Shown here: positions 2,608-31,785 of the stretch, one piece after another
How positions within the stretch are numbered: position 1 is the stretch's first letter
Layout: every line of letters starts with the position of its first letter
Source: a virus
DNA: 41,410 nucleotides
Virus record (IMG/VR): IMGVR_UViG_3300010396_000068
Coordinates: 1 to 41,410 of that record
Direction: 5' to 3' (one strand)
Notes under the pieces: model-generated
What the model saw: only the letters and a program-made list of their open reading frames with translations
Database searches by the model: none
Told to the model about the DNA's origin: nothing
Position numbers and translations under genes: made by a program

Positions 2608-5154
2608 TCAGTTCTGCGATGCCGTCATGTGCGAGAGGTCGGGCGCGCGATGCGGTGTGGCCTCATCGGGGTTCCAGTACATCGACTGGTTCTGTTGTTG
2701 CGCGCGCGCCTTCTGCCGCATGAGATAGCCCGGCGAGAGGTAGTCGGAAAGCTCGTTGAAAATCAGGTGGTCCAATACCGCGCGGGTGTACCAGAGGTTC
2801 GCGCCGGGGATGTAACTGCGCACCGTGCGCTCGGCTTCGAGGGCCGGCGAGTGCAGCTTGCGCTCGGCATCCGCATCCGGATCGGTGCCGGCCGCAATCG
2901 ATTTCTGGATCAGGTCCATGATCGAGGACGCATCCGACACCAGCGGCCCGAGGATCGTTTCGCCCAAGGTGTTGCCGCGGCTGCCAGCGGTGTTGATCAG
3001 GTAGTCGCCGTAAAGGCCCAAGCCGCCGCCGCGCACCAACGCCGACACCCAGTTCTTCCATCCATCCTTCGCCGACAGGTTCAGGCTGCGCGGATCCTTG
3101 CCGTTGATGATGTCGTTGATCGCGTTCGCGGTGGCGCCGAGCAGCGTTGTGGTGGCGATCAGCGAGGCGAGATACCCCACACTCCCCTTCCAGTTGTCGT
3201 AATACTTCAGCGCCCGCGTCAGGTGCTGCAGGGTCAGGTCGAAGCTGTAGGTCTTGAACAGGCTGAAGCTGCGGCCGAGGATGCCCAGCACGCTGTCCGG
3301 GTCCTGGTCGGCCCCCAGCATCACTTTCACGCGCGCGCCGGGTTCGAGGATGGCGCGGTCCTGCTCGGCGTACACCAGCCCCATCAGCGCCGACGCCGCG
3401 CGGTCCTTGGCGAGCGCGGGCGGTTCGTCCGTGATCTTCGCAACCGCTTCGTCCGGGATGCGGTAGATCGACTCGGGGGTGATCAGCGCGTGGTTGCCGC
3501 CCCAGTCGTCCGGTTGTGCAAGCCGCAGGATTTGCCAGTGGTCGTCCGTGATGCCCGATTGCTTGATCAGTTGCTGGTCGCCGCGGGCGAGATCGGTGAT
3601 GTGCGCGTTCTCCGCGACCGCGCGCCCGACCTGATCCATCATGCCAAGGCTGAAGGCCTGCTGCCGCGCGCGCCACGCATACGGCGCCAAGGTCAGTTTC
3701 AGCACGGTGTTGCCGAGTTTCGAGGTCCATCCGTGCGCGCCGATGTCGGCGCCGAAGCGGGAAATCATCTGCGAATACTCGCGCACCATCAGGCCCGCGC
3801 TCTCGGCGATGCGCCGCTGGCTGCGGTCGAGCGGGTTCATCGCCCGAAGTTCGTTGAGCCACATTTTCGTCTTGGGCACGCCGTTGACGTGCGCCGTGTT
3901 CAGCATCGTGCCCCAATCGCCCAGCGAATTGATCACCGTGGCCGACAGTTTCATGAGGTTGAGGTTGCGCCAGCCCTGGATCGCGCGGCCGTACCAGGTC
4001 GAGGGCAGCATGTGGTCGTTGCCGGCCATGTAGTTGTAGACGCGCGCGAGGAACCGGCCCTGCCGCGTGTACCACCACGCTTTCGCGGGATCGTTCATCA
4101 CCTCGCGGTTGGTAGCGTCGTCGAGCGCCTGCCGGAACGCCAGATCGGCATTCGGCCCGAACTGTTCCACCAGCGCGATGTTGCGCGCCATCGAGCGCAC
4201 GTGGCCCAGCATGGTATCGAGTACGCCGCGGTCGCTGAACTGCTGGCGCGCTTGAAGCTGCGCATCCGCGTCTTTCAGGTGGATTTGGCGCTCCGCGCTC
4301 ATGCGGTTGGCCTTGATGCCACCGCCCACGCGCGTGCCGCCCAGCACCTTGTTCGCGCCCTGCGTCGCGATCGTCTGCCACGCCTCGTCCAGCAGGCCGC
4401 GCAAGTCCTCGTCGGAATAGCGTGCGCCGTCCTCGTGGACGTACTTCGAGCGATCGAGCAGCGGCAGCATGGCATCCGTCCAGGCTTCCTTGCCCGCCTT
4501 CAACACCTTCATGGCGGACCAGCTTTGCGGGATGCCCCAGTTGTCCAGCTTGCCGATGTCGCCGCCGGCCGCGTTGAACCGGCGCCGCAGCCGATCGGCG
4601 ATGGTGTGGAAATCCCGCGCCGCGTCCCTGAAGGCTTTGGGCACGGTCTCATCGCCGTACAGCGCGCGGATCATCGCGACCTCGGCCTTGGGGTCGGCCA
4701 TCAGGTGCAGCAGCCTGCCGCCGGCGGCGTGCCAGGTCTTGGTCAGGTACGTGCTGGCCGCGGACAAGATACCCATCTGCTTCGACCAGACCGATTCGAT
4801 ATTGTTCTTGCCGTCCGCACGGCCTTCCAGCATGCGCGACAACGCCGAGATGCGGTTCGCGTCGGCGCCGCTGGCGAGTTGCGAGGCGACGTAGTTCTCG
4901 ATGCGGTCGTGCGCGAGGATCGTCTGCGCGGTGCGAATGCGCTTGGTGAGGGCTTCCTGCGTCAGCTCGCGCGCCGCTTCGGCGCCGGCGCGCTGCGCCT
5001 GCTCATCGGCCGAGAGCTTTTGCCAGCCGTCCGGGTCCTGGGTCGCGAGGCGCTTGCGCGCCAGCCGCATGCGGTTCTCGATGTCACGGTTCTCGACGGC
5101 GGACGTGCGGCGCCCGAGCGCATCCGAAACGCGGTCGATGCATTCGGCTTTCAT
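2608..5154 (-). CDS. Large internal virion (ejection) protein, 848 aa
   Basis: I recognise this 848-residue protein only by position and style: it is the last of the three long proteins in the slot where T7-like and BPP-1-like podophages encode internal core proteins. It is mostly alpha-helical and charged at the N-terminus (1-130). A weakly hydrophobic stretch follows ([20 protein letters not shown], about residue 660), then a Pro/Gln-rich end. The ATG overlaps the stop of the upstream polyvalent gene (ATGA), so the two are translationally coupled. It probably enters the cell with the DNA. No enzymatic motif is evident. Confidence 0.75.
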
Positions 5155-27711: not shown

Positions 27712-27932
27712 GCTGCACGCTCCGCTGGTGCGTAGGCATGGGGCCGTATGCCGCCCTTCCGGTGTTGCGTGCCGTATCCGCATACCCGGATCAACCCACG
27801 GCGCAGCATCTTGCCGCGCACGCCTTCGACGTAGGTTTTGGCCGTGCAGAGGCAGCGCGCCAGTTCCGCGTCGGTCATGGGCGCGAGCGCGAGCGCTGCG
27901 AGGATGCGGTCGTGGAGCTTGGGGCGCGTCAT
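27708..27932 (-). CDS. Winged-helix DNA-binding protein, 74 aa
   Basis: This small protein has one winged helix-turn-helix: HDRILAALALAPMTDAELAR (helices 1-2), AKTYVEGVRGKMLRRGLIR (recognition helix) and a basic wing (HRKGGIRPH). It lies in the replication operon, overlapping its neighbours by 4 bp on both sides. A role in replication or regulation is plausible. Confidence 0.65.
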   Translation of the reverse strand: MTRPKLHDRILAALALAPMTDAELARCLCTAKTYVEGVRGKMLRRGLIRVCGYGTQHRKGGIRPHAYAPAERAA

Positions 27933-28402
27933 GGCGTTGCACTCAAGTCGATGTCGATGCCGAGCTTTTTGCAGAGTGCGCCGAGTTCGCGTTTCGCGGC
28001 AGCCCGTGAAGCATCCGATTCGATCCTCGGCGCAGACGTGTGGTAGTGGCCCGACTCGTAGGTCCGAACCACGTTGTCGGCGGGATTTTGCTTGGACGCG
28101 CCGCGGCATAACGCCGCAAACTCGGTGCTCGACGGCGGCCATCCATCGGCGCGATCGGCGTCCGCGTTGAAGCCGCGTTGCAGCGAGTCGAGCGTCTGCG
28201 ATCCCACGGTTTCAGCCCACTCGGCACCCGCAAGACCCGTGGGCGAATCACCCACTTGCGACGTCCAGCGGTTCCCGTAGCGGGCGGCCATCCTCGCCCA
28301 GAGGTAATCCAGCAGCTCCGGGTTGAGGTGTGTTCGCCCTGCGTTCGCGGATGGCGGCTTCGACGCGTTCGACAGCGCTTGGGCGGCTGGTTGGGTTTGC
28401 AT
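27929..28402 (-). CDS. Lambda P-like replication protein, 157 aa
   Basis: The start MQTQPAAQALSNASK (ATG 28402) has AGGAGG upstream. The LNPELLDYLWARMAARYGNRW and WPPSSTEFAALCRG motifs are typical of phage P-type proteins that load the host replicative helicase onto the initiator complex. Its first 155 bp overlap the 3' end of the initiator gene in another frame, an unusually long overlap. It follows the initiator as in lambda O-P. Confidence 0.75.
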   Translation of the reverse strand: MQTQPAAQALSNASKPPSANAGRTHLNPELLDYLWARMAARYGNRWTSQVGDSPTGLAGAEWAETVGSQTLDSLQRGFNADADRADGWPPSSTEFAALCRGASKQNPADNVVRTYESGHYHTSAPRIESDASRAAAKRELGALCKKLGIDIDLSATP

Positions 28403-29321
28403 GGGATCCTCCTGCGATGGGTTGCGCGCCGTCTGCGCGCTCTCGGCGTGCGGCGCGGATCGCGTACAGCGGCGGCTTGTCGGGGTAGGCATCGGCAAAG
28501 GCTTCGATCGACTCGACCGTGACGCCTTCGCGGATTGCGGTGATGATTTCGGGGTTGGTGGGCGTCAGGCGCAGCCATTGCGCGCCGCGCTTGCGTAGCC
28601 GCACCACGGCATTGAGGGCCGGGTTCAGCTCTGAGGCGGGCGGTTGGTCCTCCCCACCGGGTTTCGCGGCGCTCGCGCGGGGGGAGGTACCACAATCCGC
28701 GGGAGAGTTACCTATCTCGGGCTTTTGATCTTTATTCCCTGTCCCTGTCTCTTGCGATCCCGACGGGATTCCCGATGGGACAGGCTTGGGATTCCCGGCG
28801 GGAGGTTTTTTTGGTCCCGATGGGACTCCCGGCGGCTTGCGTTTGGAGAGCGCTTTGGATTGCGGATTGAGTGCCGCCAGCATCCCGCGCGCATCGGTGA
28901 TGTGCACTTCAATCTCGGTTGGATCGAACTCGATTCCCCACCGCTTCGCGTTGCCAGCGCCGCTCGAAAGCCGCTGCGACAGCTTCTCAAGCCACGCCTC
29001 GAGCGCCTTCTCGCACACGACTGGGTGGTACAGGCGCCCGTCGCCACCCTTACGCCAGCCACGGAGCGCCATGTCCTTCACGCGCTTCCAGCGGGGACCG
29101 GCGCCGGAATGCGCCGCGAGCAGCCGGTCGTCATCAGGCAGCGAGCCGGCTGGCACCTGCGACCAGGACTTGCCCCACAGCGTGATCGCGGCCACCTTCT
29201 CGGCGTCGTTCGAGAGAGTCCATGTGTCGCTCGCGAACAGCCTGCCGAACTCCATCGGCATAAATGGGAAGTCGCGCAGATCTACAAAGGCCGGAACCAA
29301 GGGACCGTTCACCGCATCCAC
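28248..29321 (-). CDS. Replication initiator-like protein with DUF1376 domain (YdaU/O-like), up to 357 aa
   Basis: Residues 12-110 match the DUF1376/YdaU type found in phage initiators (FVDLRDFPFMPMEFGRLFAS, GWRKGGDGRLYHPVVCEKAL). The middle (about 165-225) is a Pro/Gly/Lys linker with repeated PSG units whose DNA forms iteron-like repeats. The C-terminal domain (WLRLTPTNPEIITAIREGV) probably contacts partners. The ATG at 29321 overlaps the upstream gene by 13 bp. The GTG at 29312 would give the GTGA overlap common in this genome (354 aa). It should bind the origin inside its own gene and recruit the P-like protein. Confidence 0.75.
   Translation of the reverse strand: MDAVNGPLVPAFVDLRDFPFMPMEFGRLFASDTWTLSNDAEKVAAITLWGKSWSQVPAGSLPDDDRLLAAHSGAGPRWKRVKDMALRGWRKGGDGRLYHPVVCEKALEAWLEKLSQRLSSGAGNAKRWGIEFDPTEIEVHITDARGMLAALNPQSKALSKRKPPGVPSGPKKPPAGNPKPVPSGIPSGSQETGTGNKDQKPEIGNSPADCGTSPRASAAKPGGEDQPPASELNPALNAVVRLRKRGAQWLRLTPTNPEIITAIREGVTVESIEAFADAYPDKPPLYAIRAARRERADGAQPIAGGSHANPTSRPSAVERVEAAIRERRANTPQPGAAGLPLGEDGRPLREPLDVASG
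28758..28837. repeat. ori: Iteron-like repeats inside the initiator gene: candidate origin of replication
   Basis: Four copies of the 11-bp near-palindrome TCCCGRYGGGA lie at 28758-28768, 28770-28780, 28793-28803 and 28815-28825. A degenerate fifth (TCCCGGCGGCT) is at 28827-28837. Start-to-start spacings are 12, 23, 22 and 12, close to whole helical turns. AT-rich stretches flank or interrupt them (TTTTTTT at 28806-28812, CTTTTGATCTTTATT at 28724-28738). This copies the lambda plan, where iterons and an AT-rich segment lie within the O gene. Confidence 0.6.
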
Positions 29322-29515
29322 TCCGCGTAAGCCAATTCCGGCGTGTAGACGGGCCTCAATTCCTCGCGCAACCGCTGGATCGCATCGTGGTCGGATTCCG
29401 GCGCGTGCGGGATGCGGTCGACCAGCCAGCCATCCATGAGGCGCGCGGCCTCCGGAGTCAGACAGACCGTCACGGGGGCACCGTGCTCGTCGCGGAGGGT
29501 GACGAGGGTGTTCAC
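29309..29515 (-). CDS. Hypothetical early protein, 68 aa
   Basis: The GTG start at 29515 overlaps the methyltransferase stop (GTGA). The sequence MNTLVTLRDEHGAPVTVCLT is beta-rich, followed by helix (PEAARLMDGWLVDRI, HDAIQRLREEL). Coupled between methyltransferase and initiator. The family is not recognised. Confidence 0.6.
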   Translation of the reverse strand: MNTLVTLRDEHGAPVTVCLTPEAARLMDGWLVDRIPHAPESDHDAIQRLREELRPVYTPELAYAEWMR

Positions 29516-30429
29516 GCTGCGGCCCTCAATGCGCAGATCACTTCGTAGGCGGCGAGGGACGGAACTGCATTCCCCAGCAGGTGCATCGCCAACCTTGAGT
29601 TTTCTGGCAGTGCGCCGCGGAAGGTCATGGCGCGCTTGGCTTCGGGGACGCTCAGCATCCGCATGCGATCGCCGTCGATCACGGCCCAGCGGTCGTGGGT
29701 GGTGATAGTTCCGATAGGCTGCGCGAGGCTGCGGCCGCCGCGCGTGGCGCCGTAATACGCGGTCAGGAAACGATTGCCGTGCTGCTGTCGGCCACGCGCG
29801 ATGCGGGCCAGCGTGTTGGCTGCGCGTCCCTTGCGCTGGATGGATGACCAGCGGCCAGCATTGAAGTCGATGATGTTGGTCGCAGCGATATGCTCGCGCT
29901 GCGGCAAGCGCAATTCGATGGGATGCTTGCTCCGCGTCAGCGCGATGAATACGCGCTCGCGGTTCTGCGGCACACCCAAGTCGGCGCAATCGATCACATG
30001 CGTGGCGATCGCGTAACCGAGCGCAGTCAATGCGGCACACCACGCCGGATACAGCGTCCAGCGGGTGAAGGCAGGAACGTTTTCAACCAGCGCCAGAGGC
30101 GGCTTGTGGCATTCGATCGCCGACACCACCGCCCATGCTGTACTGCGGCAGGCGTCATGGTGCGGCCGTTCCTTTCCGCGTGCCGGCGTATGCCCTTGGC
30201 AAGCGGGCGACGCCAGCAGCAGGTCATGCGCGGGAACCTGCGTCCAGTCCTGCTGGTGCAGGTCTTGGCAGGCGTGCTGGGTTCGGGGATGGTTCGCGGC
30301 GTGCGTATCCACCGCCGCACGCCAGTGGTTGCCCGCCCAAACGACCTCACATCCGGCCTGCTCTGCGCCTTCGGTGAAGCCGCCAGCGCCAGCGAAAAGA
30401 TCGACTGCGCGGATGATGCTGTCAGCCAT
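29512..30429 (-). CDS. DNA (cytosine-5-)-methyltransferase, 305 aa
   Basis: The conserved C5-methyltransferase motifs occur in order: I DLFAGAGGF (residues 10-18, SAM binding), IV SPACQG with catalytic Cys77 (Ala where Pro is usual), VI VENVPAF (115-121), VIII QNRERVF (155-161) and X GNAVPSLAA near 288. A short variable target-recognition region lies between. No restriction enzyme is encoded nearby, so it is an orphan phage methylase, likely protecting phage DNA from host restriction. It is an early gene. The specificity cannot be read from sequence. Confidence 0.9.
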   Translation of the reverse strand: MADSIIRAVDLFAGAGGFTEGAEQAGCEVVWAGNHWRAAVDTHAANHPRTQHACQDLHQQDWTQVPAHDLLLASPACQGHTPARGKERPHHDACRSTAWAVVSAIECHKPPLALVENVPAFTRWTLYPAWCAALTALGYAIATHVIDCADLGVPQNRERVFIALTRSKHPIELRLPQREHIAATNIIDFNAGRWSSIQRKGRAANTLARIARGRQQHGNRFLTAYYGATRGGRSLAQPIGTITTHDRWAVIDGDRMRMLSVPEAKRAMTFRGALPENSRLAMHLLGNAVPSLAAYEVICALRAAA

Positions 30430-30950: not shown

Positions 30951-31214
30951 TTAGGCAGCGACGTCGACCACGTAGCCGGTCGGCCGATCATTTCGATCAC
31001 GAAGCCAGCGCACGTTCGGCGCCAAGGACTCGACCCGTACGCCGGTTCCGGCTTCGATCGCGGGCGCGTGTTCCAGCGGGCAGCGCTTGCCACGATTCAG
31101 CCAGATCCACACGTGGCGCTGGGTCACGGGCGGACCGCAAAGACGGGCGAGGGCAGATTGGCCGCCGGCGCGTTCGACGGCTCTTTCGAGCGCTTTGAGG
31201 GCTTGGGTGGACAT
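30951..31214 (-). CDS. Cro-like / YdaS-family transcription regulator, 87 aa
   Basis: This short protein has a YdaS-type helix-turn-helix: LKALERAVERAGGQSALARL, then PPVTQRHVWIWLNRGKRCPL, followed by IEAGTGVRVESL. It is divergent from the repressor gene, as Cro is from CI. The ATG at 31214 has no clear Shine-Dalgarno sequence. It lies about 7 bases after a TATGAT -10 box, so the mRNA may be leaderless. It likely represses the repressor promoter and commits the phage to lysis. Confidence 0.8.
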   Translation of the reverse strand: MSTQALKALERAVERAGGQSALARLCGPPVTQRHVWIWLNRGKRCPLEHAPAIEAGTGVRVESLAPNVRWLRDRNDRPTGYVVDVAA

Positions 31215-31220
31215 GTTCGA

Positions 31221-31251
31221 ATCATACCACCACAGTTGTACAACTTGTCAA
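31221..31251 (-). promoter_or_regulatory. Leftward early promoter (PR-like) with operator
   Basis: The minus strand has TTGACA (31251-31246) and TATGAT (31226-31221). The spacer is 19 bases, longer than ideal; TGGTAT three bases upstream gives 16. The perfect 12-bp palindrome AGTTGTACAACT (31234-31245) fills the spacer, so a bound regulator would block RNA polymerase. Confidence 0.65.
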
Positions 31252-31258
31252 CCCCTCT

Positions 31259-31299
31259 GGTTGTTTGCACTCAACAACCCGAGTCGTGACTATGCCTTT
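31259..31299 (+). promoter_or_regulatory. Repressor promoter (PRM-like) with operator, probably leaderless
   Basis: The plus strand has TTGCAC (31265-31270), 17 bases, then GACTAT (31288-31293). The start site would fall at the repressor ATG itself (31300). The inverted repeat GGTTGTT-7-AACAACC (31259-31279) covers the -35 box. It shares TTGT/ACAA words with the operator at 31234-31245. Confidence 0.6.
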
Positions 31300-31785
31300 A
31301 TGGAGAAAAAAGACCGCTACAAGGCCGCGCGCCAACACGCCAGGCTCACCCAGGTGCAGCTTGCCGAAAAGGTGCCCATGAGCCAGCAGATGGTCTCCAA
31401 GCTCGAAAAGGGCCTAACCACCGAGTCAGCCTTTGACGTCCGGATTGCCGTCGTCTGCGGGGTGCGTGCGGAATGGCTGGACGCCGAGGAAGGCGAGATG
31501 GTGGGATCCTCGAAACCGCCGGCCGCCAACCCCAAACTCAAGGCGGACCTCGAAGCCACCAACAATGCCCTCGCCGCCTTCGCTATCGCCGCGGCGCGCT
31601 CCACACCAAAGTTAGCCGGGGCGTTCCTGGGGGAACTGAACAAGATGCCAGACGACTACAAGAACCGGAGCATTTACGCGGTGTTGATAGAACTTCTCGA
31701 ACATGGAGCCGCCAGTCAGGCAGCGGCTCCGAAGCATCGTCAAGGTCGCGCAATTCGCGGATCAGCCGCGCGTAAGCGGGGATAG
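31300..31785 (+). CDS. HTH (XRE/CI-type) repressor, 161 aa
   Basis: Residues 5-60 form an XRE helix-turn-helix: YKAARQHARLTQVQLAEKVP, then SQQMVSKLEKG (recognition helix) and DVRIAVVCGVRAEWL. The rest is a helical region without the Ser/Lys protease domain of LexA/CI. Induction would therefore need something other than RecA-stimulated self-cleavage. The ATG at 31300 has no ribosome-binding site and sits at the predicted transcription start, as in lambda cI made from PRM. It is the likely lysogeny repressor, divergent from the Cro-like gene. Confidence 0.8.
   Translation: MEKKDRYKAARQHARLTQVQLAEKVPMSQQMVSKLEKGLTTESAFDVRIAVVCGVRAEWLDAEEGEMVGSSKPPAANPKLKADLEATNNALAAFAIAAARSTPKLAGAFLGELNKMPDDYKNRSIYAVLIELLEHGAASQAAAPKHRQGRAIRGSAARKRG

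Follow-up and report, generated by a model that had tools for sequence, protein, structure and literature searches.

A viral DNA of 41,410 nucleotides (IMG/VR record IMGVR_UViG_3300010396_000068, positions 1 to 41,410; hereafter the window) carries an array of near-palindromic iterons in the middle of a DUF1376 gene. Sequence comparison indicates that this array is most probably where the initiator binds in a phage replication origin, located inside the initiator's own gene. The sites are conserved as DNA and not as peptide: they occur in all three reading frames, they exceed synonymous nulls, and their arms are conserved.

The iteron array and its gene

The initial annotation reported four exact copies of TCCCGRYGGGA and a degenerate fifth, with start-to-start spacings of 12-23-22-12. 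All five copies are present (Table 1) and the spacings are reproduced exactly. The AT-rich tracts reported beside the array also exist, as a run of seven T residues and as AATAAAGATCAAAA. GC skew, which had been proposed as a check, gives no clear origin signal across the window.

Table 1. Features of the array, its host gene and the adjoining element
Feature	Position	Strand	Remarks
Iteron TCCCGACGGGA	28758..28768	.	exact TCCCGRYGGGA match; gene frame 1
Iteron TCCCGATGGGA	28770..28780	.	exact match; gene frame 1
Iteron TCCCGGCGGGA	28793..28803	.	exact match; gene frame 2
Iteron TCCCGATGGGA	28815..28825	.	exact match; gene frame 1
Degenerate iteron	28827..28837	.	2 mismatches
T7 run between two iterons, inside the array	28806..28812	.	
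Second element GATCGCAAGAGACAGGGACAGGGAATAAAGATCAAAA, directly after the last iteron (gene orientation)	28723-28759	-	
GATCGCAA, first part of the second element; overlaps the last iteron	28752..28759	-	loose-form anchor
Purine-rich tract AAGAGACAGGGACAGGGAATAAAGA	28729..28753	-	family purine fraction; synonymous-site bias
AT-rich AATAAAGATCAAAA, candidate unwinding element	28723..28736	-	family AT excess
DUF1376 gene, 357 aa (P0001), putative replication initiator	28248..29321	-	PF07120, phrog_22470
Predicted winged-helix-like core, residues 39-98 of the N-domain	29028..29207	-	AlphaFold2 model
Next gene, start codon unsure	27929..28498	-	weak match to P-like helicase loader phrog_109

The four exact copies are the only TCCCRN2GGGA sites in the whole record, and no further sites are gained when 1-5 bases are allowed in the motif centre. 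With up to two mismatches accepted, the window has no excess of the motif (54 matches vs. 63 expected); the signal lies in the exact copies and their clustering. Synonymous-codon permutation of the window gene yields a mean of 0.29 TCCCN3GGGA sites, and the four observed sites were reached in none of 10,000 permutations.

The protein matches PF07120 (E 1e-9) at 39.1 bits, above the gathering score of 30.1, and is thus a member of DUF1376. It also matches phrog_22470, a family named replication protein (E 1.5e-30); its putative identity as an initiator rests on this PHROG name. The earlier view that the array lies in an initiator gene is borne out to this extent.

In the AlphaFold2 model of the full protein, the chain is ordered to about residue 160, residues 161-228 have low confidence, and the C-terminal part is helical with moderate confidence. 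The array encodes part of residues 161-228; judging from the model, this linker is probably disordered. Modelled alone, the N-domain has a mean pLDDT of 93 and the element order helix-strand-helix-helix-hairpin, which is the winged-helix order. The N-domain model has no significant match in the PDB (best E 0.19), which is a point against the origin reading. Seven of its top eight PDB rows are chains of 5kbj, 4pql, 4pta and 4pt7 (E 0.19-0.89, not significant), entries whose titles read Rep-DNA complex, initiator and similar, and which we take to be RepA_N plasmid initiators. A second aligner places these four entries at Z 3.3-4.0, level with other winged helices such as ORC subunits. Among BFVD viral models, clear matches to the N-domain are mostly DUF1376 proteins. 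A fold search with the full-length model and a search of the A1 profile against PDB sequences returned nothing useful.

The next gene matches phrog_109 with E 2.9e-5 over residues 37-134; Pfam gave no match for it. Just upstream of the DUF1376 gene is a C5 cytosine DNA methyltransferase gene (29512-30429, minus strand), and Burkholderia phage BgManors32 also has such a gene near its DUF1376 region. Further along are a YdaS-family ORF (30951-31214, minus strand) and a repressor-like helix-turn-helix ORF (31087-31785, plus strand), which resemble an immunity pair; the Rac prophage also carries ydaS and racR.

Conservation of the sites as DNA

The gene set covers 80 of at least 563 DUF1376 relatives, so distant members fall outside it; 8 of 35 phage records were taken for comparison. 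A search of genome contigs with a single protein found one relative. Eighteen of the 80 genes were fetched by motif, and family-wide site counts consequently lean upward. Because of this bias, tests were repeated on the 61 genes fetched by homology, which form a fairer set; counts in this set lean downward, since four contigs found by both searches (L116/L022, L121/L047, L122/L038 and L179/L041) count only among the 18.

The 80 distinct genes, window included, contain 67 strict sites, which are distributed over frames 1, 2 and 0 as 31, 29 and 7. More than one frame is used in 13 of the 24 genes with at least two copies. A copy of the window (L001) is excluded from these figures; with it the totals are 81 genes, 71 sites and 14/25. 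The 61 homology-fetched genes have 17 sites in total, whereas 200 permutations average 3.7 and never exceed 9; ten genes have a site and five have at least two. The first 13 relatives have strict sites in four loci (L005, L007, L009 and L017), and the Pseudomonas phages among these 13 have none. A motif-free count of repeated palindromes in 49 non-redundant homology-fetched linkers gives 92, whereas 100 permutations average 54.4 and reach at most 61; in the N-domain, used as control, the count is 57. Gene by gene this test is weaker, with p 0.05 reached in 30 of 80 genes, and this is counted against the origin reading, as is the finding of strict sites in four loci among the first 13 relatives.

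Synonymous changes that freely break the repeats in close relatives had been named as evidence contrary to a DNA role. The comparison was made on three genes (the window, L053 and L022) and such breakage is not seen. Identity to the window in L053 is 32/32 over the arms, 32/53 over the drifting remainder of the array and 253/349 over the N-domain; L022 gives 31/32, 35/53 and 234/356 for these three parts. L053 also shares the layout of the window (22, 23, 12 in gene orientation).

The copies had been described as encoding a repeated PSG linker. This is true of three exact copies, which share a frame and are translated (V/I)PSG. The fourth, at 28793, is translated from another frame as PPAGN, and the degenerate copy gives KPPG. 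Since the copy at 28793 is in a different frame, the array of the window is not a simple peptide repeat. The proposal that coding and DNA function overlap in this stretch fares better, as relatives retain the DNA motif in differing reading frames. It is hardly credible that the array is simply a tandemly duplicated Pro-Gly linker without a function as DNA. A short 12-bp tandem is found at 28758-28780 (TRF), 20 of the 37 spacings measured in relatives are divisible by three, and the low-confidence prediction for the linker is of the kind given for disordered stretches; these points are consistent with peptide duplication. Against it, one and the same DNA word gives VPSG, DPTGT or SRRD on translation, and in L043 four sites at an exact 22-bp spacing shift frame at every copy (frames 1, 2, 0, 1). 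The synonymous nulls are exceeded and the arms are better conserved than the remainder of the array, which also argues against a mere peptide repeat.

The same 37 spacings bear on the claim that the iterons are spaced by helical turns. They fall at 12 (4), 21-25 (23), 34-36 (4) and 44-45 (4), plus 59 and 95, so that rough phasing stands; a step of about 11.5 bp fits them better than 10.5 bp when these steps are compared with each other only. Exact 10.5-bp phasing was rejected for this reason.

IMG/VR was scanned for two TCCCRN2GGGA-type sites with 0-28 bases between them, with the reversed pattern as control. Paired sites occur in 43 stretches, 19 of which lie within a DUF1376 gene found by profile; the reversed pattern occurs in 55 stretches, none within a DUF1376 gene (controls were checked for DUF1376 only). 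Ten ORFs were scanned with Pfam and PHROGs among the other 24 stretches, which have no DUF1376 profile match, and three of these stretches (L026, L021 and L048) proved to be in or just upstream of replication genes. In L026 the gene has a DUF1376 match with a score under the Pfam cut-off. The remaining 21 of the 43 stretches, seven of them among those scanned, lie outside any recognised replication gene; some of the 21 are near-copies of each other.

Several of these other stretches have features of their own. In L021 (4492-5484, minus strand), a replication initiation protein gene of another PHROG family contains two TCCCGATGGGA sites with a GGGGCA repeat after them, arranged much as in DUF1376 genes. 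In L048 (1800-1844), TCCCGGTGGGA sites lie a short way upstream of where an O-like HTH_36 initiator probably starts. In L033 (3684-4625) and L056 (5688-6497), paired sites are at the start or end of ORFs that match head scaffolding proteins.

The adjoining purine-rich and AT-rich element

A conserved element at 28723-28759, missed by the initial annotation, directly follows the array in gene orientation. Across the family, the iterons are followed by GATCGCAA, a purine-rich tract such as (GGGACA)n, and then AT-rich DNA; all reading frames are used. The loose anchor, a pattern written after the sequences were inspected, is found in 73 of 80 genes (frames 0/1/2 = 40/18/15), and strict GATCSCAA in 56 of 80 linkers (37/14/5). 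From +10 to +29 relative to the anchor, the coding strand is 83-84% purine (bins +10 0.84, +20 0.83); the next ten bases, bin +30, have an AT excess of 0.20. The tract differs between phages, with (GGGACA)n, GGGAA-like and GAGAGG-like versions. L036 and L044 have iterons and no purine tract, which is counted against the origin reading.

The purine bias is also found at synonymous positions. In the tract, 208 of 239 four-fold codons have a purine at the third position, compared with 5065 of 11,240 elsewhere; glycine is encoded by GGA or GGG in 147 of 153 cases, compared with 441 of 1404. When the best run of each kind is compared within each linker, purines surpass pyrimidines in 77 of 80. L053 and L022 have one six-base unit more than the window in this element, and L022 has two base changes besides; the AT-rich AATAAAGATCAAAA is nearly unchanged in both.

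The iterons could instead form RNA hairpins in the mRNA and regulate translation or transcription, although we judge this very improbable. A 4-bp stem is possible at each site, and stems of at least 7 bp follow the tract in 17 of 65 genes, compared with 2.6% of control windows. The window lacks such a longer hairpin and has no match in Rfam at the gathering threshold, which speaks against a role at the RNA level. Scans of the window for tRNAs found nothing. The site centres are also informative: 63 of 65 strict sites (28 genes) have the centre R-N-Y, in which R and Y vary independently, and 13 of the 65 have A..C centres, which cannot pair in RNA. Such independent variation of R and Y agrees with a palindromic site for a protein and speaks against hairpin formation in RNA.

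A hairpin was also considered as a general part of the element and rejected; it is enriched in relatives and absent from the window, and this absence is counted against the origin reading. A role for the tract as a G-quadruplex was rejected as well, with the motif in 19 of 73 tracts and none in the window. A CCG..CGG hairpin recurs after the tract in L020, L035, L045, L051, L154, L181, L186 and L188; its stem letters vary and its loops include CTATCG, CTAACG and CTGACG.

A broader proposal is that the DUF1376 genes of phages and prophages of several hosts all belong to a single family of self-embedded origins. GC-rich phages would have exchanged the usual AT-rich unwinding element for a coding-strand purine tract, and transcription through the gene would leave a stable hybrid of purine RNA (an R-loop) that opens the origin. 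This is offered tentatively, as a possibility with the odds against it. If it were true, GQGQGQ and TGTGTG linkers would be translated origin DNA.

Proposed site recognition and comparison with known systems

A second group of genes has TCG-rich sites, for example ATCGCCCCCCGAT (relaxed pattern TCGSN3SCGA). Under relaxed patterns, also written after inspection, 32 of the 80 genes are of type A and 32 of type B, seven have one copy and nine have neither type; the latter two groups are counted against the origin reading. Iteron type clusters on a tree of the N-domain. Type B requires 4 changes vs. a shuffled mean of 26 and type A requires 9 vs. 26, with none of 500 shuffles as low; when A and B alone are counted, 4 changes are needed. 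The tree is a quick one on 79 of the 80 genes, with one-copy genes counted by type, and includes many near-copies, which help clustering. The clustering suggests that the N-domain recognises the iteron. Four B-type genes (L151, L192, L193 and L195) are nested among A-type N-domains and fit less neatly; the place of the window itself is ambiguous, its nearest row by path being B-type. Both points are counted against the origin reading.

The palindromes may be DNA sites with a purpose other than initiation, such as an autoregulation operator, a parS-like partition site or a site for a host protein; this is unlikely, though less so than the peptide and RNA explanations. Palindromes with independent R/Y centres resemble the sites of dimeric DNA-binding proteins in general, and type B iterons are found in N-domain lineages apart from each other, a pattern that could stem from a host factor common to them. 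In contrast, the mid-gene position in a replication gene and the conserved purine/AT tract that follows favour initiation, as does the presence of paired sites in or beside two other replication initiator genes. Iteron type also largely tracks the DUF1376 N-domain.

An origin of the proposed kind would work as follows. Protein dimers (or pairs) would bind the TCCCR half-sites of each palindrome and assemble on the roughly phased array; this assembly would open the adjoining purine-rich/AT-rich stretch. The next gene, through its loader-like product, would then bring in the helicase, in the manner of lambda O and P. What the linker peptide reads would be dictated largely by the origin DNA; it would be a piece of protein shaped by a DNA function in all three frames.

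One family member in a laboratory host is YdaU of the E. coli K-12 Rac prophage, a DUF1376 gene with palindromic repeats in the linker followed by an AT- and purine-rich stretch. In ydaU (L197 3620-4477), exact TGTTN2AACA sites are found at 4012, 4045 and 4068, within 66 bp of the linker, and a C-run/G-run hairpin follows the AT-rich stretch. Three or more exact sites occur in 0 of 2000 synonymous permutations; with one mismatch allowed 77 of 2000 permutations equal the gene's own result, and with two 729 of 2000. This word is unrelated to the iteron of the window and was selected once the sequence had been inspected. PMC3945230 reports that Rac has an active origin, oriJ; no statement of its exact position, or of its lying inside ydaU, was found in the literature searched. 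At the level of titles and listings, no paper on a replication origin in the DUF1376 family was found.

Phage replisome organisers and Lin1244-Lin1753-like proteins have weak structural similarity to the N-domain (BFVD E 0.03-0.4) and belong to different families. There is no detectable homology to lambda O, also a point against the origin reading: the hhalign probability is 0.2%, and Pfam finds DUF1376 alone. A sequence search of the PDB with lambda O itself was empty at E 0.01.

The likeness to lambda is one of layout. Gene O has four annotated near-palindromic iterons in the middle of an initiator gene, with gene P next. All four begin with ATCCC and three end with GGGA. The stretch after them (L196 615-659) is 78% purine and 69% AT, its first five bases still belonging to iteron 4; an inverted repeat, seen by eye, follows. 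The iterons of the window are shorter (11 bp with a 3-bp centre vs. 18 bp in lambda) and its tract is less AT-rich (57% vs. 69%). In PMC7466680, O dimers are described as binding the mid-gene iterons, with the AT-rich tract serving for unwinding.

The RepA_N initiators are a second parallel. PMC5703833 describes the N-domain of the pSK41 initiator as binding four boxes located centrally in rep, the origin-encoded part of the protein being its linker. The winged-helix N-domain (predicted here), sites within the protein's own gene and a linker encoded by the origin (proposed here) are similar in the two systems. In contrast, the DUF1376 protein has no Pfam RepA_N match at E 0.01 and the fold scores are not significant.

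The order from iterons to purine/AT-rich DNA, as in lambda, and the parallels with pSK41 make the array look like a known kind of origin. Self-embedded iteron origins are an established type; if the origin proposed here from sequence is correct, what is new is its host in a DUF family and the conserved purine-rich element. A Pfam family of 'unknown function' would thereby gain a concrete likely role, and every phage or prophage with a member of the family, the one in E. coli K-12 among them, a predicted origin site.
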